IMG/VR virus record: IMGVR_UViG_3300021178_000033
Location: 1-30,637 of that record
DNA length: 30,637 bases
Strand: one strand, 5' to 3'
DNA from: a virus
Shown here: positions 4,613 through 21,878 of the stretch, piece after piece
How the letters are laid out: each line of letters opens with the position of its first letter
How positions within the stretch are numbered: the first letter of the stretch is position 1
The notes under the pieces: generated by a model
The model's database searches: none
Told to the model about the DNA's origin: nothing
What the model saw: only the letters and a program-made list of their open reading frames with translations
Program-made: the position numbers and the translations under genes

Positions 4613-6385
4613 GTGGACATTAGCGCCATTCTCACCTCTGTCATTGCTACTCTCCCGCCAGCAAGCAGGGTGGAGGCTGAGCTTGCACAGGACATATACG
4701 AGCTAGCAGATGAACGTGTGCGCTGCGAAGCATCGCTGTACGAGTTTGTGAGAAGCGCGTGGTCATCCATCGACAGTTCCGAGTTCCAAGACAATTGGGC
4801 CGTCGAGGCGTACTGCCAGCATCTCGAAGCGGTGACATATGGTGACATCAAGAGGCTTTTGAGCAATTTTCCGCCTCGCTGTTCTAAGACTCTCGTAACG
4901 TCTGTGTGTTGGCCGGCGTGGGTGTGGGCACAGTCAGATGTGACATATCTAAGCGGTCCGCAAGTGCGCTTTCTGTGTGGCAGCTATGGCGAGCGTCTAT
5001 CGTTCGAAGGCTCTAATATGTGCCGCCGGCTGCTCTTGAGTCCTTGGTATCAACGACTATGGGGCCATCGATTCTCGCTACGAGATGATCAAAATTCCAA
5101 GTCGAAGTTCGACAACACACAGAATGGCTCACGCTGTGCGACTTCGGTCGGCGGTTCTCTGCTTGGTCTCGGTGGTGACATAATTATTGTGGATGATCCC
5201 CACCAAACTGAAGAGGTGGAATCTGACGATGTGCGCGCCAAAACCATAGCGTGGTGGAATGAAATTCACACAACACGCTTGAACGATCCGAAAGACAGCG
5301 CCGTTGTTGTGGTGATGCAGAGGTTGCACAATAGTGACGTATCTGGGGTAATTCTGGATAGCGATGAAGAGTGGTGTCATTTTGTGATTCCAATGATCTT
5401 CGACGAGAAGCAAGTGCGCCGTTGTGTCACCGTTCCACTGCCGCAATATGACGCCGATGAGCCCTGGCAAGACGAACGCGAAGACGGCGACTTGATGTGG
5501 CCCGAGCGCTTCGGCCTCAAAGAGATCGAGGGCCTACGCAGGCTTGGGGATTGGTTCTGGTCTGGCCGCTATCAGCAATCCCCTGTGCCGGCCGGCGGCG
5601 GCATCATCAAGCGCGAGTTCTGGCAACCATGGGACAACGTCGAGGCGCAGCGGTACGGCTTAGAATGGACTGGCGCGCGTCGCGAGTTCCCTGACATTGA
5701 GTTGGTGGTTGCAAGCTTGGACACAGCTTATGGCGAGAAGGAGGAGAACGATTACAACGCGCTCACGGTCTGGGGCATATGGGTTCATACGATCCAAGTG
5801 CCTGGGGAGGATGGCGTCCCAGCTCGTAACTTAGTCGTAAACAGGCGGGCGATGCTAATGTTCGCTTGGGCAAAGCGGTTGCCACTACACACCCGTGAGG
5901 TGTTCGCTTACCCAAACGAGTCCAAGGCTGATTACGAGGCGCGCAAGAAGGAGAGCTGGGGGCTCGTAGAGTTGGTCGCCGATACATGTAAGCGTTACAA
6001 GGTGCGCCGGCTTCTGATCGAGGACAAGACGCGCGGTCGCGATGTGGCCAATGAGTTGAAGCGGCTGTACGCTCGTGACAACTGGGGCATCGAGCTAATA
6101 GTGCCGACGAAGGATAAAGTGACACGCGTTCACTCAATTGTGCCAATGTTCACCGATAACGCTGTGTGGGCGCCTGACACTAAATGGTCTGACGAGGTGA
6201 TTACGCAGGCGTCGTTGTTCCCGAAGGCGGAGCACGACGACTATGTTGACACAATTTCGATGTTCCTGCTATGGGCGAGGGAGAAGGAGTTACTCGTTCG
6301 CGCTGACGAGATGTCGGCCGCGCTGGAAGACGAGGCAATGTGGAAGCCGCACGAGGAAACGGTGGCCGAGGGATATGGGGTGTGA
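4613..6385 (+). CDS. terL: terminase large subunit
   Basis: A 590-residue packaging ATPase/nuclease, normal length. The start is GTG at 4613. Residues 86-93 (FPPRCSKT) occupy the Walker A position; the usual Gly before Lys is replaced by Ser, an atypical loop also tolerated in related terminases. IIIVDDPH (190-197) is Walker B. The nuclease domain shows SLDTAYG (Asp370), 'LIEDKTRG' and HDDYVDTIS (Asp542/543 and Asp546), the expected metal-binding acids of the RNase H-like fold. It pumps DNA through the portal encoded at 16743. Oddly, portal and terminase are separated by about 10 kb of accessory genes. Confidence 0.93.
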   Translation: MDISAILTSVIATLPPASRVEAELAQDIYELADERVRCEASLYEFVRSAWSSIDSSEFQDNWAVEAYCQHLEAVTYGDIKRLLSNFPPRCSKTLVTSVCWPAWVWAQSDVTYLSGPQVRFLCGSYGERLSFEGSNMCRRLLLSPWYQRLWGHRFSLRDDQNSKSKFDNTQNGSRCATSVGGSLLGLGGDIIIVDDPHQTEEVESDDVRAKTIAWWNEIHTTRLNDPKDSAVVVVMQRLHNSDVSGVILDSDEEWCHFVIPMIFDEKQVRRCVTVPLPQYDADEPWQDEREDGDLMWPERFGLKEIEGLRRLGDWFWSGRYQQSPVPAGGGIIKREFWQPWDNVEAQRYGLEWTGARREFPDIELVVASLDTAYGEKEENDYNALTVWGIWVHTIQVPGEDGVPARNLVVNRRAMLMFAWAKRLPLHTREVFAYPNESKADYEARKKESWGLVELVADTCKRYKVRRLLIEDKTRGRDVANELKRLYARDNWGIELIVPTKDKVTRVHSIVPMFTDNAVWAPDTKWSDEVITQASLFPKAEHDDYVDTISMFLLWAREKELLVRADEMSAALEDEAMWKPHEETVAEGYGV

Positions 6386-7370: not shown

Positions 7371-7973
7371 ATGAGCAAGAAGGCATTCGACAAGATCGCG
7401 GAGGGTCTGCGCGAAGCGCTTTCCGTCGCACGGGGAGAGGCGAAGCCTGCTAGGCTTCACATTCTGCCGGACAACGCTCCGCTCCACGTCATAGGTGTGA
7501 TCCGCGACAGAAACCTAGACAAGTCCAGTGCGATCACGGTGTTGTTCTCTGGGCCAATTGGTGACGCTGATCTGCGCGAGTTCCACGAATACGTCAGCAA
7601 GTGGCGTATCGAGATGCCGATAGGGGGGGCGATGACTGTATTGAATGCATTAGCACCTGGACCATGGACCGCCGACGAAGATTCGGTCGGCATGCATTGG
7701 ACGCACTCAGTGTCCGTGAAGGATGCGGACGGTTCAGAGGTTTGCGTTCTGACCAGAGGCTATGAAGGCGATCAAAATGGTGAGACTTGTCCATCTTGGC
7801 AGAACGCCAAGCTGATCGCCGCCGCGCCGGACCTGCTTGCAGCGCTAGAATGGGCGCTCGACAGGCTGTTGGATGCAAAAAACGTCTGTTACGGCGGCGT
7901 GACGATTGAGGAAATCAACGAACGTCGCGTCGCCGTTGCCAAAGCCACTGAAAAAACCACAAAGCCGGCTTGA
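7371..7973 (+). CDS. probable fusion of two small genes across a G7 tract
   Basis: A 200-residue frame of mosaic character. Residues 1-30 (MSKKAFDKIAEGLREALSVA, then RGEAKPARLHI) match the N-terminal helix of rhizobial HigA/XRE-type antitoxin-regulators, but the HTH that should follow is absent. Residues from Met88 on (MTVLNALAPGPWTADED to NAKLIAAAPDLLAAL) match a separate common phage family. The join lies at seven consecutive Gs (7623-7629). With six Gs the first part would end in TGA overlapping ATG 7632 as ATGA, the arrangement used throughout this genome. So two genes fused by one inserted base, a slippery tract or a sequence error are all possible. Confidence 0.6.
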   Translation: MSKKAFDKIAEGLREALSVARGEAKPARLHILPDNAPLHVIGVIRDRNLDKSSAITVLFSGPIGDADLREFHEYVSKWRIEMPIGGAMTVLNALAPGPWTADEDSVGMHWTHSVSVKDADGSEVCVLTRGYEGDQNGETCPSWQNAKLIAAAPDLLAALEWALDRLLDAKNVCYGGVTIEEINERRVAVAKATEKTTKPA

Positions 7974-8008
7974 CACAGATATAGGGGTTGTGCGACACGT
8001 CTGTCTGT

Positions 8009-8073
8009 GGGCGAGCCCCGCCGCAGTCGGTTATCAGTGGATGACAGTCCGATTGCACATCTTGTGTTCGCCC
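8009..8073 (+). ncRNA. Y RNA-like small RNA, copy 1
   Basis: A 65-nt structured element. The closing stem GGGCGA (8009-8014) pairs perfectly with TCGCCC (8068-8073). An asymmetric internal loop follows, GCCCCGCC on the 5' side and ACATCTTGTGT on the 3' side. The inner stem GCAGTCGG (8023-8030) pairs with CCGATTGC (8049-8056) and is followed by TTAT and a small hairpin. The same GCCCC / TCGGTTA / CCGA / TGTGT skeleton occurs in three other elements in this window. Position directly upstream of the Ro gene and shared architecture suggest a Ro-bound Y RNA. It lacks the tRNA-like domain. No convincing promoter seen; TTGACA at 7970 has no matching -10. Confidence 0.7.
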
Positions 8074-8081
8074 TCGGGAAA

Positions 8082-8206
8082 CTGTGAGCCCCAGGAAGTT
8101 CGGTTATCTAGCGGTCGTTGGTTCGAGTCCAACCGTGGAGTAATCTGCGTAGCTCAGTTGGTAGAGCATTAGACTACAACCCCGATCTTCGCTCATGTGT
8201 TCACAG
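8082..8206 (+). ncRNA. yrlA-like: Y RNA with circularly permuted tRNA-like domain, copy 2
   Basis: A 125-nt element. The closing stem CTGTGA (8082-8087) pairs with TCACAG (8201-8206), followed by GCCCC. The inner stem GAAG-T-TCGG (8095-8103) pairs with CCGA-T-CTTC (8182-8190). Inside is a tRNA in permuted order: 3' anticodon-stem strand TCTAG (8107-8111), five-base variable region, T arm GTTGG-TTCGAGT-CCAAC (8117-8133), acceptor stem CGTGGA (8134-8139) and TCTGCG (8144-8149) closed by GTAA, T8-A9, canonical D arm (8152-8167), then the 5' anticodon strand TTAGA (8169-8173). Y RNAs with tRNA-like modules encoded beside Ro are established in bacteria and phages (YrlA type). Confidence 0.88.
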
Positions 8207-8215
8207 CTTCTTGAG

Positions 8216-8231
8216 GGCCTTGTTGAAGGCC
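8216..8231 (+). promoter_or_regulatory. hairpin over the Ro ribosome-binding site
   Basis: GGCCTT (8216-8221) and AAGGCC (8226-8231) form a perfect 6-bp stem with a GTTG loop, ending seven bases before ATG 8238. The only Shine-Dalgarno-like sequence for the Ro gene, GAAGG (8225-8229), lies mostly in the 3' arm, so the hairpin should limit initiation. It could also mark the 3' border of the upstream Y RNA. No T-run follows, so it is not a standard terminator. Confidence 0.5.
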
Positions 8232-8237
8232 ACTAAA

Positions 8238-9911
8238 ATGGAAATATGGCGATCTATTCCAAGGTGGCCTGCTTATGAGGCCAGTTCACTTGGCAACATT
8301 ACCAAGCCAATTCCGCAGTCAGAGCCACTTGACGAGCGGCAGGTTCCCAACAATGCCGGCGGGCACGTCTACCAGATTGATGACTGGAAGCGTTTAGATC
8401 GCTTTCTGGTTCTGGGCAGCGATTCCAGCACGTACTACCAGAAGGCCGCCGATCTCACCCGAGAGAACGCCAAGTGCGTTGAACGCTGCTATGCGCTGGA
8501 TTCCGCGCGCACCGTAGCGCGTATTGTGGAAATCTCGGATGGCGGTCGTGCACCGAAGAACGATCCTGCCATCTTCGCTCTGGCGCTCGGCGCAGCCTCG
8601 CCTGACGTGCGAACGCGCCAGCTTGCTCTGGGGGCCTTGCCGCAGGTTTGCCGCATCGGCACGCATCTATTCCAGTTCGTGACGGCAGTCCGTGCCCTTG
8701 GTCGCGGCTGGGGCCGGACGCTGAAGCGCGCCGTGGCTCGGTGGTACGATGAGAAGCCGGTCGATGCTGTAGCGTATCAGGCGATCAAGTACCGATCGCG
8801 TGAGGGCTATAGCCACAAGCGGCTGTTGCAGACAGCGCATCCGTCAGGGGGCGTCGTCAACGAAGGTCGCAACTTTGTAATACCTCTCGTAAGTCCAAAG
8901 AGGGCTGACGAGATGATCTCTAGGGTGGCGCTGTACCGTTGGCTCTGCGAGAAGGAATTTAACGAGAACAACCTTCCTGTCATTGTTCAGGCGCATCGTG
9001 CCGCGATGGCATCGACGGATGTCAAGACTTGGGTGCAGGGTGTCGAGTGGCACAATCTTCCGTGGGAGGCGCTACCGACTGAGGCCAACGCCAAGCCTGA
9101 GGTCTGGCAGGCAATGCTGCCCAAGATGGGCTTGACTGCCCTCATCCGCAATCTCGGCAACATGACACGCATCGGTGCCATCACACCGCTGTCCGATCAC
9201 GAGCGCATTGCGGTTGAGCGCATCAAGGATCGTGATGCCTTGAAGAAGGCGCGCGTGCATCCATTCACGGTGCTCCAGGCGAAGGCGGTCTATGCGACGG
9301 GGCGGGGCGTCAAGGGCAGTGGAACATGGTCGCCATCGGCGCCGATTATCGCAGCGCTTGAGGACGCATTCTATGCGGCGTTCGACAACGTGGTGCCGAC
9401 CAACAAGCGCACGCTCATTGGGCTTGATGTGTCCGGCAGCATGAGTGCGCCATTCGGCGGCACTAGCATGAGTGTTGCAGAAGCCGCTGCTGCTATGTGC
9501 ATGGTCACCGTTCGCACCGAGCCGTGGACGATGATTCGTGGCTTTGCTACGGACTTCCGTGATCTCGGCATCACGGCAAAGGATAGCCTCGAAACGGTGT
9601 TGGCGAAGACGACTAGGCAGAACTTTGGTAACACTGACTGTGCTCTGCCGATGGTCTACGCGTGGCAGCACGACTTGAAGGTTGACGTGTTCTACGTTTT
9701 CACGGATATGGAGACATGGGCCGGCTCAGTGCATCCCATGCAGGCGTTGCGTGACTATCGCTGGAAGAGTGGCATTAATGCCAAGCTGATCACCGTGGCT
9801 ATGACCAGCACAGGCTTCAGTATCGCGGACCCGAAAGACGGATGTGCATTAGATGTTGTAGGGTTCGACTCTGCGGCGCCGGCTGTGATGGCGGACTTTG
9901 CGAGGGGATGA
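8238..9911 (+). CDS. rsr: Ro60/TROVE-domain protein (Rsr-type)
   Basis: A 557-residue Ro ortholog: a ring of HEAT-like repeats that binds Y RNAs and misfolded RNA ends, closed by a C-terminal von Willebrand A domain. IPQSEPLDERQVPNNAGG and YQIDDWKRLDRFLVLGSD are characteristic of TROVE N-termini. The VWA part has the MIDAS DVSGS (Asp397, Ser399, Ser401) and TDMETW (Asp490). In Deinococcus and Salmonella, Ro uses Y RNA to tether polynucleotide phosphorylase. ATG 8238 is chosen because upstream codons lie in the Y RNA. Residues 2-20 (EIWRSIPRWPAYEASSLGN) are not Ro-like but match NUMOD4 of homing endonucleases. Its stop overlaps the next gene. Confidence 0.92.
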   Translation: MEIWRSIPRWPAYEASSLGNITKPIPQSEPLDERQVPNNAGGHVYQIDDWKRLDRFLVLGSDSSTYYQKAADLTRENAKCVERCYALDSARTVARIVEISDGGRAPKNDPAIFALALGAASPDVRTRQLALGALPQVCRIGTHLFQFVTAVRALGRGWGRTLKRAVARWYDEKPVDAVAYQAIKYRSREGYSHKRLLQTAHPSGGVVNEGRNFVIPLVSPKRADEMISRVALYRWLCEKEFNENNLPVIVQAHRAAMASTDVKTWVQGVEWHNLPWEALPTEANAKPEVWQAMLPKMGLTALIRNLGNMTRIGAITPLSDHERIAVERIKDRDALKKARVHPFTVLQAKAVYATGRGVKGSGTWSPSAPIIAALEDAFYAAFDNVVPTNKRTLIGLDVSGSMSAPFGGTSMSVAEAAAAMCMVTVRTEPWTMIRGFATDFRDLGITAKDSLETVLAKTTRQNFGNTDCALPMVYAWQHDLKVDVFYVFTDMETWAGSVHPMQALRDYRWKSGINAKLITVAMTSTGFSIADPKDGCALDVVGFDSAAPAVMADFARG

Positions 9912-10741: not shown

Positions 10742-11176
10742 ATGCGCTGTTACGTGTTTGACATTGATGGAACGCTCGCCGACATCACGCATCGCCTGCC
10801 GTTCATCCAGAAAGAGCCCAAAGACTGGGACGCGTTCTTTGACGCATGTTCAGAGGACAAGCCGATCCAGCACATGATCGAGGTGGCAAGGACGCTTTAT
10901 AGGTGTGATGCGGTCGTATTCGTGTCAGGCCGCGCCGAACGGTGTCGCAAAAAAACAGAGGTGTGGCTGATGGAGCATTTGTGGTTCTCCAATCGGCTCT
11001 ACATGCGTGGGAATGGCGATCATCGCCCTGACAATGAGGTCAAGAGCGAGTTGCTGGATCAGCTTCTGGCGGATGGCTACGAGCCGCAACTTGTGTTTGA
11101 TGATAGAAAGGTTTGTGTTGACTTTTGGCGCAGCAGAGGGATTCCTTGCGCTCAAGTCGCCCCAGGTGATTTTTGA
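10742..11176 (+). CDS. HAD phosphatase resembling the T4 Pnkp 3'-phosphatase domain
   Basis: A 144-residue HAD-superfamily phosphatase. Motif I is FDIDGTLAD (Asp7, Asp9), motif II VSGR (61-64), motif III Lys101, and motif IV FDDR (Asp120, Asp121). The end, with Trp129 and CAQVAPGDF, closely follows the end of the phosphatase half of T4 polynucleotide kinase-phosphatase (W.R.G..C.QVA.GDF), which removes 3' phosphates or 2',3'-cyclic phosphates from broken RNA. No kinase domain is attached. Next to Ro, Y RNAs and tRNAs, an RNA-repair role is attractive, but nucleotidase activity is an alternative. Ribosome-binding site GGAAGG; stop overlaps the next start. Confidence 0.8.
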   Translation: MRCYVFDIDGTLADITHRLPFIQKEPKDWDAFFDACSEDKPIQHMIEVARTLYRCDAVVFVSGRAERCRKKTEVWLMEHLWFSNRLYMRGNGDHRPDNEVKSELLDQLLADGYEPQLVFDDRKVCVDFWRSRGIPCAQVAPGDF

Positions 11177-12033: not shown

Positions 12034-12114
12034 TAATAGCACATTGGAAGATCGGCCGTGCTAGCTGCGTCCTACTCGGGCAAAAGTGCCCACGACTCAA
12101 TGCGTCACCAATAC
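12034..12114 (+). other. short structured spacer
   Basis: Contains inverted repeat TAGCAC (12037-12042) / GTGCTA (12058-12063) and a perfect small hairpin GGGCA-AAAG-TGCCC (12078-12091). It lacks the GCCCC and TGTGT motifs of the neighbouring Y-like RNAs. Possibly part of a long tRNA/Y-RNA precursor; no gene seen. Confidence 0.35.
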
Positions 12115-12177
12115 GGGCGAGCCCCAGGCATTCGGTTATCCCATGATAATGAACCGATCGCCGCTTTGTGTTCGCCC
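12115..12177 (+). ncRNA. Y RNA-like small RNA, copy 3
   Basis: A 63-nt element with the same skeleton as the copies upstream of Ro: closing stem GGGCGA (12115-12120) with TCGCCC (12172-12177); GCCCC next to the 5' strand and TGTGT next to the 3' strand; inner stem TCGG (12132-12135) with CCGA (12154-12157), extended after a two-base mismatch by GGC/GCC; TTAT paired with ATAA as a small apical hairpin. Only nine bases separate it from copy 4. It lacks a tRNA-like domain. It is 3.9 kb from copy 1 but on the same strand. Confidence 0.7.
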
Positions 12178-12185
12178 TCTTCGAT

Positions 12186-12275
12186 AGAACGAGCCCCTTG
12201 TGTTCGGTTACCGAATGTAGCCTCGACAGAGGTGGGGTGTCGAAACCCCGATCCGACGCAGCTTGTGTTCGTTCT
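12186..12275 (+). ncRNA. Y RNA-like small RNA, copy 4, with partial tRNA-like insert
   Basis: A 90-nt element. The closing stem AGAACGA (12186-12192) pairs perfectly with TCGTTCT (12269-12275), a different sequence from the other copies but still paired. GCCCC, TCGGTTA (12204-12210), CCGA (12253-12256) and TGTGT are all kept. Inside are two hairpins, CCTC-GACA-GAGG (12221-12232) and GGGGT-GTCGAA-ACCCC (12234-12249). The second resembles a T arm with a TCGAA loop, so this may be a reduced tRNA-like module. Confidence 0.65.
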
Positions 12276-12323: not shown

Positions 12324-12659
12324 ATGAAAGTGATAGCCCAGAAAGTCGAGCAATCTGGCCCACCACTCTTCCGCCTCTACATCCACAGCGCCCCTCACAG
12401 GAGGATGCATCGTGTGGTGATCCAGCAATACCGGGAGAAGCTACGTCCGGCGTTCATGAAGCTGGGCGAGCCATTGCCGATCGACTACCCGATAGAGTTG
12501 TCGGTGGTGTTTGTGAATCCATCCAGCCCGGACCTCGGGAACTTGTACCTTGCCCTTGAGCAAGCGCTGGATGGCAAGACACTCAAGAAGCCCGGCATTC
12601 TGGCTGACGACAGTCTTATCCAGGTAGTGCGTCATCTATCGAAGATGTATGTCACTTGA
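12324..12659 (+). CDS. RusA-like Holliday-junction resolvase, catalytic residues altered
   Basis: A 111-residue protein from ATG 12324 (the frame extends upstream only through the Y RNA). The RusA pattern is visible: LPIDYPIELSVVFVNPSSPD, then DLGNLYLALEQAL and GILADDSLIQ. E. coli RusA cuts four-way junctions using Asp70, Asp72, Lys76 and a later Asp. Here the first Asp is present (Asp70), but DxD reads D-L-G (Gly72) and the Lys position is Leu76. The protein may be inactive as a nuclease, may bind junctions only, or may use other residues. Length fits the family. Confidence 0.75.
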   Translation: MKVIAQKVEQSGPPLFRLYIHSAPHRRMHRVVIQQYREKLRPAFMKLGEPLPIDYPIELSVVFVNPSSPDLGNLYLALEQALDGKTLKKPGILADDSLIQVVRHLSKMYVT

Positions 12660-12684
12660 CACTATTTGTCACGTAGCTTAGCAT
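12656..12684 (+). promoter_or_regulatory. candidate sigma70-type promoter
   Basis: TTGACA at 12656-12661 overlaps the stop codon of the RusA-like gene, and TAGCAT lies 17 bases later (12679-12684), matching consensus at four positions. It would drive the gene at 12718 and the following tRNAs. Confidence 0.45.
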
Positions 12685-12717
12685 TGTCCCAATGCCAGTT
12701 TAACAGGGATGTGTCAG

Positions 12718-13080
12718 ATGAGCGGTAGGCAAGATCAGGGTGTTCGGCAAATTCATCCCAAGTCCCTTGCCCTAATAGGCGATGAGGCGTGTCTGGAAAT
12801 GTTGGCTCTTGCACGAGACTTGCGCAGCGGCGCTGTGCCGCCGGAAGACTATAATCAGACTCGGTTAGGTTACCGGTGCGGAGCGTCATGCTGCATTGCA
12901 GGGCATTTGAGACGACGGCTGTCTTGGGAAACATACGCGAAGATAAGAGGTGGTTGGGTTGCATGCGACAACGGGATTGTGGATTTGTTTGCGTCATACC
13001 ATCCGTCTGATCCACACTTAGCCGCCGATGCGATCGAGCGGTTTGTGTTCGATTGTTCTGATGAACCTTGGAAAGTTTGA
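12718..13080 (+). CDS. hypothetical protein
   Basis: ATG 12718 has AGGGA eight bases upstream; ATG 12709 overlaps that site and is less likely. The 120-residue product starts MSGRQDQGVRQIHPKSLALI and has a central YRCGASCCIAGHLRRRL, a Cys-rich motif seen in small phage proteins of unknown function, then DAIERFVFDCSDEPWKV at the end. The stop codon abuts the first base of the initiator-like tRNA at 13081, so it is co-transcribed with the tRNAs. Confidence 0.6.
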   Translation: MSGRQDQGVRQIHPKSLALIGDEACLEMLALARDLRSGAVPPEDYNQTRLGYRCGASCCIAGHLRRRLSWETYAKIRGGWVACDNGIVDLFASYHPSDPHLAADAIERFVFDCSDEPWKV

Positions 13081-13155
13081 TGCGGGGTGGAGCAGCGGCA
13101 GCTCGTTCGGCTCATAACCGAAAGGTCGGCGGTTCGAGTCCGCCTCCCGCTTCCA
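13081..13155 (+). tRNA. tRNA-Met(CAT), initiator-like
   Basis: Acceptor TGCGGGG with TCCCGCT leaves position 1-72 unpaired (T-T), the defining feature of bacterial initiator tRNA. The D stem GAGC/GCTC contains A11-T24, also initiator-like. Anticodon stem TTCGG/CCGAA around CTCATAA, anticodon CAT at 13113-13115. Only two of the three initiator G-C pairs are kept: 29-41 is C-G rather than G-C. Canonical T arm GGCGG-TTCGAGT-CCGCC, discriminator T and encoded CCA. A phage-encoded initiator-like tRNA is unusual. Confidence 0.9.
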
Positions 13156-20068: not shown

Positions 20069-20816
20069 CGGCGCTTCTGCCAAGCTTCACCGCCTCACGC
20101 GCAATTATGGTGCTGCATCGAAAGACAATGTGCCCGGCGAGAGCAATCGGCTCAAGATGAACGGGCCGGAGGGTGACATCGGCTTTGGGGCCGATGTCAG
20201 CAATCCGCGCGTTCGCAATGATCGCATTGCACGCCGTCCGATGAAGTCGAATCCTCCAAAGCATCGCGACGGCGGCTCCGTGCTCGCAAGGGCCAAGGGT
20301 GGCCGTGCCGGCAAGGGCAAGGGCCATACCCACGTCAACGTCATTGTGGCTCCACAGGCGGGTGGTGGCGGGGGTGGTCCGCCGCCTATGCCGCCGGCTG
20401 GTGGACCGCCGATGCCGCCTCCACGGCCTCCTATGGGCGCTGGCGTGCCTCCCGGCTTGCCGCCCGGTATGCCGCCACCCGGCGCGATGCACCCTGGCAT
20501 GCCCCCAGGCATGCCGCCTCCTGGCCTACCTCCAGGCGCGATGCCACCGCCCGGTGGAATGCCGCCCGGCTTGCCGGTGCGCAAGCGCGGCGGTCGCGTC
20601 CACGGCGATGCCAAGGAAGATCGCGGCTTGATCAAGAAGGTGCTCAAAGAGGAAGGCTTGAAGCCGGCCGATCATGCCCACCATCGCGCGAGTGGTGGCG
20701 TTCTCCCTGGTGGGAAACACCAGCATTTCGGTGGCCACAGCGGCATGGGCCGGCTGGAGAAGATGGGCAAGAAGGCGCCGCCGCTTCAGAAGCCGGAGGC
20801 GGTTGGCACGATATGA
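20037..20816 (+). CDS. Pro/Gly/Met-rich repeat protein with basic ends
   Basis: A 259-residue protein from ATG 20037 (AAGGAG seven bases upstream). Residues about 1-110 are polar and basic (KHRDGGSVLARAKGGRAGKG). Residues about 110-190 are almost purely Gly/Pro/Met (repeats such as GMPPPGAMHPGMPPGMPPPG), an extended or disordered linker. The C-terminal part contains RKRGGRVHGDAKEDRGLIKK, sharing GGRVHG with the protein at the right edge of the window. Gly/Pro linkers with basic ends suit virion proteins that bind DNA or tether parts, but this is inference. Confidence 0.65.
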   Translation: MAHPNKKEASDGASAKLHRLTRNYGAASKDNVPGESNRLKMNGPEGDIGFGADVSNPRVRNDRIARRPMKSNPPKHRDGGSVLARAKGGRAGKGKGHTHVNVIVAPQAGGGGGGPPPMPPAGGPPMPPPRPPMGAGVPPGLPPGMPPPGAMHPGMPPGMPPPGLPPGAMPPPGGMPPGLPVRKRGGRVHGDAKEDRGLIKKVLKEEGLKPADHAHHRASGGVLPGGKHQHFGGHSGMGRLEKMGKKAPPLQKPEAVGTI

Positions 20817-21262
20817 GCAAACCGATCCTCTGTTGCGACTTTGATGGTGTAATTCACAGCTACACCAGCAAGTGGACTGATGAAGCTACCATTTCCGATC
20901 CACCTGTGCCTGGAGCTTTGCGTTGGCTGTGGGCAGCGACGGAATGGTGGGACGTGCAGATTTACAGTAGTCGCTCCAAATCATCTGCTGGCGTTTCTGC
21001 CATGCAGTCATGGCTCGAAACTCACGCGGCGCATGAATGGGGCGATCTCGATTTTGCACGTCAATTCGTCGCTGCGTTCAAATTCCCAACACAGAAACCG
21101 GCCGCTTTTTTGACAATTGACGACCGTGCCGTTTGTTTCGAAGGAGATTGGGGAGAACTTGATCCATGCGAGTTACTGAACTTCAGGCCATGGAATAAGC
21201 GAGAGCCGCTTGGCGCTACGGTGCGTCGTCTTGGCATAGCGTTCCCGTTGGTAAAGGTATGA
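20813..21262 (+). CDS. HAD-superfamily hydrolase
   Basis: A 149-residue HAD protein. Motif I is CDFDGVIHSY (two Asp), followed by VPGALRWLWAATEWWDVQIY, motif II YSSRS, and the motif IV-type TIDDRAVCFEG. Similar small HAD phosphatases recur in phages and probably act on nucleotides or nucleic-acid ends. It differs clearly from the Pnkp-like phosphatase at 10742. Coupled by ATGA to both neighbours, inside the structural module. Confidence 0.78.
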   Translation: MSKPILCCDFDGVIHSYTSKWTDEATISDPPVPGALRWLWAATEWWDVQIYSSRSKSSAGVSAMQSWLETHAAHEWGDLDFARQFVAAFKFPTQKPAAFLTIDDRAVCFEGDWGELDPCELLNFRPWNKREPLGATVRRLGIAFPLVKV

Positions 21263-21468
21263 TCGACTCGTTCCACATCGCACTGCATCGGATGATCAGC
21301 GAGGAGATCGCCAGTCGCATGACGAACTTGGCGGCTGGCGCCGCCGCTGATTACTCGGCTTACCAGAAGCGAGTCGGTGAGATAACGGGATTCAATGCGG
21401 TCCTGGCCATGTGTCAACAAATCGAGGAAACGCGTTACGGTAGTCCGAAAGAGGGAGATGAACTCTAA
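21259..21468 (+). CDS. small phage protein
   Basis: Sixty-nine residues starting MIDSFHIALHRMISEEIASR, predominantly helical, with AYQKRVGEITGFNAVLAMCQ then QIEE near the end, a pattern ('Y....G.I.G...A...C..IE') common in small phage proteins encoded next to head genes. Overlaps neighbours by ATGA and TAATG. Probable head-assembly accessory. Confidence 0.65.
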   Translation: MIDSFHIALHRMISEEIASRMTNLAAGAAADYSAYQKRVGEITGFNAVLAMCQQIEETRYGSPKEGDEL

Positions 21469-21878
21469 TGCCGTTTATGCTGATGGAACACGAGAACGAT
21501 CCTCGTCAGGTGATTTACAAGAAGATCGGGATGAAGAAGCTGGGAGAACTTCCTGGTTTCAAGCTCTTGCGCAACGACGTATTGCTCGGCGTGTACGAGA
21601 GGCCGGAGAAGACGAAGAGCGGCATCCATCTACCGGATTCGACGCGTAATGAAGATTCCATGCAAGGCAAAGCAGCGCTGGTCTTGGCTCTTGGACCAAC
21701 CGCCTTTGTGTCTGACGAGCATGTCACCTTTCACCCAGAACAGAAGGTCGGAGTTGGCGACTGGGTGTCGATTTGGGTTAGCGATGGTCGCAAGATCGTA
21801 ATAAATGGGCAACTGTGCCGGATCATTAGAGACCAAGACGTGGTGCTTTCTATACCATCGCCTGATTCGGTGTGGTAA
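21468..21878 (+). CDS. GroES-like co-chaperonin
   Basis: A 136-residue protein. GFKLLRNDVLLGVYERPEKT, KSGIHLPDS, then AALVLALGP, VGVGDWVSIW and INGQLCRIIRDQDVVL follow the Cpn10 pattern (P..DRVLV...E...T.GGI..P, V.AVGPG, V..GD.V....., ....DI). Phage co-chaperonins such as T4 gp31 replace GroES on host GroEL to fold the major capsid protein. It lies upstream of scaffold and capsid genes, in keeping with that role. About 35 residues longer than GroES, with an extra N-terminal segment and insertion. Confidence 0.85.
   Translation: MPFMLMEHENDPRQVIYKKIGMKKLGELPGFKLLRNDVLLGVYERPEKTKSGIHLPDSTRNEDSMQGKAALVLALGPTAFVSDEHVTFHPEQKVGVGDWVSIWVSDGRKIVINGQLCRIIRDQDVVLSIPSPDSVW

Follow-up and report, generated by a model that had tools for sequence, protein, structure and literature searches.

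The window analysed here is the whole 30,637-base IMG/VR virus record IMGVR_UViG_3300021178_000033 (positions 1 to 30,637), which on the evidence of its terminase, portal and head genes is a tailed phage. A stretch of 11.7 kb in this soil phage is identical to part of a 36.5 kb contig in the same collection, and megablast of the region against phages gave no match. When portal and terminase are compared, several phages of alphaproteobacteria, such as those of Roseobacter, Pelagibacter and Caulobacter, are among the named phages closest to it. An IS1595-type transposase gene is found inside the phage at 13597-14580 (Pfam DDE_Tnp_IS1595, E 1e-42), adjoined by a PAPS reductase-like gene; the transposase is absent from the related loci compared, which may end short of that position. 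In addition, phosphoheptose isomerase-like and GroES-like genes lie at 20813-21875 (PHROGs). The region around the Ro gene contains the following features, where R1 denotes a covariance model of the Ro-docking base shared by the Y RNAs:

7970..8003, + strand: conserved upstream element TTGACACAGATATAGGGGTTGTGCGACACG, candidate phage promoter region (near-identical in the related locus L002)
8009..8073, + strand: Y RNA 1 (RNA1), 65 nt, lower stem GGGCGAG/UUCGCCC, upper stem GCAGUCGG/CCGAUUGC, UUAUC loop motif (model R1)
8082..8207, + strand: Y RNA 2 (RNA2), 126 nt, lower stem CUGUGAG/UUCACAG, upper stem GAAG-U-UCGG/CCGA-U-CUUC, UUAUC (Rfam YrlA match)
within 8082..8207, + strand: tRNA-like module of RNA2 after UUAUC, T-arm GUUGGUUCGAGUCCAAC, hairpin, D-arm GUAGCUCAGUUGGUAGAGC
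8216..8231, + strand: hairpin GGCCTT/AAGGCC between RNA2 and the Ro start (seen in the sequence)
8238..9911, + strand, ATG to stop: Ro60/TROVE and vWA protein, 557 amino acids (Pfam and structure homology)
8241..8300, + strand: NUMOD4-like N-terminal extension of Ro, probable homing endonuclease remnant (Pfam NUMOD4)
8820..8822, + strand: codon CGG, Arg195 (Asp181 in Xenopus Ro), the switched residue (alignment of 169 Ro proteins)
10742..11176, + strand: PNKP-type 3'-phosphatase domain gene (Pfam HAD_PNKP, E 2.3e-34)
12114..12178, + strand: Y RNA 3 (RNA3), GGGCGAG/UUCGCCC, UUCGGUUAUC (R1, conservation)
12186..12275, + strand: Y RNA 4 (RNA4), 90 nt, GAACGAG/UUCGUUC, UUCGGUUACC (R1 in the identical contig)

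The Ro protein is a full-length member of the Ro60/TROVE family, as the initial annotation had proposed from its MIDAS motifs. The TROVE (HEAT ring) domain (PF05731, E 1.6e-42) and the Ro60 vWA domain (vWA_Ro60, PF25045, E 3.3e-61) both score over their cut-offs, and the alignments with D. radiodurans Rsr (2nvo, E 1.4e-122) and Xenopus Ro (1yvp, E 1.6e-110) are nearly full length, covering about 530 residues. The MIDAS of the vWA domain is represented by DVSGS and TDMETW, which are conserved in the alignment. The Y RNA-binding residues are also present, with KYRSREGYSHKRLLQTAH of the window aligned to KYKQRNGWSHKDLLRLSH; in Xenopus Ro, K170 and R174 are presumably such residues. Another Y RNA-binding residue of Xenopus Ro is H187 (PMC11277228). 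Two properties of the protein had been overlooked, namely the replacement of a nearly invariant aspartate by arginine in the Y RNA-binding stretch, which is discussed below, and the NUMOD4-like N-terminus, in which the first 20 residues match Pfam NUMOD4 with 22.5 bits (E 1.4e-4; cut-off 23.4). Since the related loci L002 and L018 carry a third Y RNA at the position of the NUMOD4-like piece, and Ro of L002 starts with MKYAK..., the invasion of a homing endonuclease followed by a deletion probably replaced a Y RNA and became fused to Ro in the window lineage.

The element TTGACACAGATATAGGGGTTGTGCGACACG is near-identical in L002 despite the divergence of the flanking gene, which makes it a candidate phage promoter region; a sigma-70 scan called no promoter at 7970..8003, and a sigma-70 and terminator scan around the window Y RNAs returned nothing useful. 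The hairpin at 8216..8231 places its 3' strand at the ro ribosome-binding site, and GGCC...GGCC hairpins occur at a similar place, after the last Y RNA, in L113, L114, L115, L002 and L018. It is possible that such hairpins exert translational control or act as a processing site.

Two structured RNAs ahead of Ro had been recognised in the initial annotation, and both (8009-8073 and 8082-8207, starting no more than about 230 bases before the ATG of Ro) are confirmed as Y RNAs, but the window contains at least four, as RNA3 and RNA4 further downstream had been missed. The latter two are located between the PNKP-type gene and a tRNA cluster that follows them. Rfam calls no Y RNA in the window at gathering thresholds, and therefore relaxed thresholds and a purpose-built model were needed. 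RNA1 is found by R1 with 52.0 bits and E 3.8e-12, the training set having contained the L002 copy of RNA1 and other relatives with the window RNA1 itself left out; it is conserved in L002 and L018 and has a fold z of -2.4. RNA3, which is conserved in the same two loci (fold z -3.6), scores 62.2 bits, but the window copy is itself one of the training sequences. RNA4 reaches 41.9 bits (E 2.5e-9; fold z -3.0) in the identical contig at G008:10193-10282, which is outside the training set. On the window R1 recovers RNA4 only in part, and it misses RNA2 because of the long distal insert in this RNA. The search with the YrlA family model that had been suggested does detect RNA2 at 8097-8191 (E 1.6e-7 in 431 nt), with 40 bits, which is below the RF02553 gathering cut-off of 69. 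This alignment runs through a T-arm and then a D-arm in the same order as the YrlA model, and a basal stem that bears a tRNA-like T-arm/D-arm module lies next to ro in the window, as RNA2, and also at related loci. Furthermore, the RNA2 homologues in L002 and L018 have stems that are changed yet still paired. The four RNAs differ in their distal domains: RNA1 and RNA3 have short loops, RNA2 has a tRNA mimic and RNA4 has a branched domain.

Common to all four is a docking base that consists of a lower stem of 7-8 bp, the Ro recognition site, an upper stem of nine positions, which often holds a U-U mismatch, and UUA(U/C)C. A DNA pattern from the window (GAGCCCC...TCGGTTATC) scanned over 2.9 million viral contigs gave 28 stretches, and 26 contigs matched the RNA motif pattern, 10 of them Ro-positive and 16 without Ro. 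L099 and L117 were dropped as false positives, and most hits without Ro have no lower-stem partner or no conserved 3' motif. Real-looking Y RNA units were seen in three contigs with no detected Ro, L107 1146-1278, L119 1023-1131 and L123 1484-1551 (reverse complement), which are fragments of 16.6, 4.1 and 38.6 kb, respectively; the Ro gene may lie off the contig or Ro may be supplied by the host. With a lower-stem partner required as well, a script gathered about 37 units from about 16 contigs, at one to five per Ro gene, with the unit of L102 at 553 left out for a wrongly assigned 3' arm. Five tandem units with entirely different distal domains adjoin a single Ro gene in L121 at 12538-13130 (reverse complement), and by this script the array is the longest in the lineage of the window.

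Covariation supports the shared structure, as 93.3% of the docking base is paired over 31 related phage units, doubly changed cells number 96 as compared to 30.1 +/- 5.8 in shuffles, the covariation score is 0.514 versus 0.189 in shuffles, and sliding the partner by one column destroys the signal. The covariation of the lower stem (P1) is partly selected because its mates were picked by complementarity. The outer four pairs of the upper stem (P2) were not picked in this way, and 93 of their 124 instances are paired, when compared to a shuffled mean of 65.7 and to 10,000 shuffles of which none was as high. The shared docking base is not due to chance, and with its covariation and its position beside ro it defines these RNAs as bacterial and phage Y RNAs in the broad sense. 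The distal domains of the units are about 15 to 85 nt long, and the tRNA-like module is present in a part of them only. When R1 was run on 39 Ro loci of phages and bacteria, 56 of the 57 non-training matches at E up to 0.05 were on the Ro strand and 55 were within 1.1 kb of Ro, and across whole records of up to 132 kb every significant match was either near Ro or part of the RNA3/RNA4 pair.

Both partners of the particle are altered at one position. Among 169 Ro proteins, 156 have Asp at the position that corresponds to Xenopus Asp181, 12 have Arg and one has Thr, and all Arg-type proteins belong to one clade of 13 members that includes the window. At the RNA position that follows the bulged C in the recognition site, 98% of the 337 motifs at loci with Asp-type Ro have G, and every one of the 31 motifs at loci with Arg-type Ro has C; an opposite-strand control found 18 motifs against 374. 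Two 'G' calls at Arg loci were due to a wrong register in GGGGCCGAGCCCC and are gone when the nearest register is used. The switched base is directly 3' of the bulged ninth nucleotide of GGUCCGA (animal site GGUCC-G), and this ninth nucleotide has been reported as critical for Ro60 binding (PMC11277228). As an independent check, a degenerate-codon scan of viral contigs for His-Lys-Arg Ro yielded 12 contigs, the same 10 Ro-positive ones as the RNA-motif scan plus L019 and L024, whose RNAs are also of the GAGCCC type, so that all 12 have C-type RNAs. Arg-type Ro also occurs in records filed as bacterial (Bradyrhizobium sp. C9, Alienimonas and an Armatimonadota MAG), not all of which were traced to prophages.

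The match between residue and base might be a mere lineage marker that involves no functional contact, considering that one clade supplies most of the association and that other RNA positions are clade-specific too (position 6 changes from G to A). This explanation is made improbable by L021, the sister of L019 inside the Arg clade, which has Asp again together with Y RNAs that read GAGCCG, with G again, and has thus reverted at this position in Ro as well as in its RNAs while retaining the other marks of the Arg clade (GAG, Lys163). Two changes are needed on the tree in every bootstrap sample (0 of 200 with only one), the AU test rejects the Arg rows held as one clade (p 0.0125), and the placement of L021 has a support of 95/85; the switch rests on these two phylogenetic events. 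The matched replacement of Asp by Arg in Ro and of G by C in the RNA argues that the window Ro very probably binds the window Y RNAs with altered specificity, and we infer that Arg195 may be in physical contact with the switched base.

The UUA(U/C)C motif links these RNAs to others in bacteria and animals. Permuted T-arm/D-arm modules that were found independently of the motif (n=117) are preceded by GGUUA(U/C)C in 75 cases and by UUA(U/C)C in 86, and UUA(U/C)C occurs in 33 of the downstream control windows, which often hold the next RNA. In the nematode sbRNAs, UUA(U/C)C likewise forms the 5' end of the loop (PMC4450293). The nematode sbRNA and vertebrate Y RNA family RF01656 also resembles the window RNAs in a lower stem with a bulged C and an upper stem of about nine positions with GC clamps, whereas the window RNAs fall short of the model: RNA1 and RNA2 gave no match up to E 10 (gathering cut-off 38). 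A Ro-side RNA in a Chloroflexota genome (L159) does match RF01656 above the cut-off, with 43.5 bits and E 1.1e-5 in 58.5 kb, other bacterial matches are just below it and all beside Ro, and two Gordonia phages match weakly. The Gordonia phages GMA2 and Sixama (L004 4806-5351, L006 4968-5972) carry a YrlA-type RNA downstream of Ro in a tRNA array with tmRNA, and a Pistol ribozyme was called in L004 at 5527-5583. Bacterial Y RNAs have been described as not homologous with vertebrate Y RNAs (PMC4726728), and convergence on Ro binding is a possible source of the UUA(U/C)C likeness. On the whole, we lean towards the view that a Ro lineage exchanged Asp181/G for Arg/C, and once changed back, to give orthogonal pairs with several exchangeable Y RNAs insulated from host Ro60, and that bacterial and phage Y RNAs share a UUA(U/C)C architecture with metazoan Y RNAs and sbRNAs, against the non-homology view.

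A phage Ro with Y RNAs is a kind of system that is already known (Chen 2014, as cited in a passage of PMC12282133), and 361 GenBank phage records encode Ro. The general statements of the initial annotation, that Y RNAs are encoded near Ro60 in many bacteria and phages and that Ro with Y RNA can redirect polynucleotide phosphorylase, agree with PMC12282133, PMC7790460 and PMC8394870. Salmonella YrlA (RF02553) has the same T-arm then D-arm module on a Ro-binding stem beside ro, while RNA2 of the window differs in its lower stem, in the recognition site GAGCCC and in having UUAUC, which is absent from the YrlA consensus. Actinobacteriophages (mycobacteriophages, Gordonia and Streptomyces phages) encode Ro proteins of about 35-45% identity and Ro-proximal YrlA-type RNAs, mostly with GGUUA(U/C)C, but their Ro has the canonical Asp, their RNAs have G at the switch position, and their gene surroundings are different. 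The D. radiodurans Rsr-Y RNA-PNPase complex (RYPER) also combines a Ro ring with a Y RNA, whereas the window phage has no fewer than four Y RNAs, which vary in their distal domains. Similarly, the Listeria phage CKA15 encodes a candidate Ro, an Rsr homologue, upstream of which lie strongly transcribed RNAs that have been proposed to be Y RNAs (PMC12282133); transcription was shown there with the structure undefined, while here the structure is defined from sequence data. In the literature searched, which did not extend to the Wolin group's principal papers on Y RNAs, we found no description of the Asp/Arg-G/C switch, of a set of four Y RNAs or of the sbRNA match.

We consider it somewhat probable that the phage makes its own Ro ribonucleoprotein, in which one Ro60 ring would be served by at least four Y RNAs as private, exchangeable adaptors, with PNPase as a partner. 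A phage-owned particle had been the central proposal of the initial annotation, and its predicted formation and cognate pairing are well supported by the covariation, by the proximity and strand bias of the RNAs and by the matched protein and RNA switch. With its recognition switched, the particle would be private, neither taking Y RNAs from the host Ro60 nor losing them to it, and one Ro ring could use the different Y RNAs as interchangeable adaptors. RNA2, with its tRNA-like module, would bring in a tRNA-binding partner from the host, for which PNPase is the likeliest candidate by comparison with the RYPER complex of D. radiodurans. The tRNA-like domain of YrlA is the PNPase-binding part (PMC8394870), and by analogy RNA2 probably tethers PNPase. 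During infection Ro, RNA2 and the partner might process structured or damaged RNA, while the short Y RNAs would stabilise Ro and gate its cavity; these activities are envisaged by analogy with RYPER (PMC8394870). As possible roles of the particle, the initial annotation had suggested the steering of host RNA decay, the protection of phage RNA and the handling of damaged tRNA.

Two other functions have to be weighed, both of which are less supported than a phage-owned Ro particle. The tRNA-like Y RNA might be a decoy or sponge for host tRNA-binding or tRNA-cleaving defence proteins that shields phage and host tRNAs, an unlikely role to which several observations nevertheless lend themselves: RNA2 has T- and D-arms with no anticodon arm, acceptor arm or CCA end, tRNA genes and the PNKP phosphatase are near by, and the tRNA-like domain of YrlA has been suggested to be able to inhibit an anticodon nuclease (PMC7790460). 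Three of the four window Y RNAs have no full tRNA-like module, and thus a decoy role cannot account for the whole set; moreover, a simple decoy would need no Ro. Alternatively, the Ro ribonucleoprotein and the PNKP-type phosphatase may form an RNA-repair set that mends cleaved tRNAs, since the HAD_PNKP gene is 0.8 kb downstream of Ro and close to it also in L002 and L018, Rsr and Y RNA occur in the RNA-repair operons of some bacteria (PMC7790460), and jumbo-phage Ro proteins have been classed under RNA repair (PMC7824862). This is doubtful, as among 10 Ro-encoding related records, some of them fragments, RtcB is found in none, RNA_ligase in one and the PNKP phosphatase domain in five, the PNKP domain adjoins Ro in the closest trio only, and more than 3,300 phage records have a PNKP domain whether or not they encode Ro.

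Ro60, which is a major autoantigen, and the Y RNAs have been conserved all the way from bacteria to humans. A natural switch of a residue together with a base provides a direct and cheap test of the Ro/Y RNA partnership as well as ready-made orthogonal pairs. The shared UUA(U/C)C and the match of a nematode model in bacteria reopen the question of how metazoan and bacterial Y RNAs are related. If the reading of a phage-owned Ro particle is true, phages would maintain Y RNA adaptors of their own, as a set on a single Ro ring.
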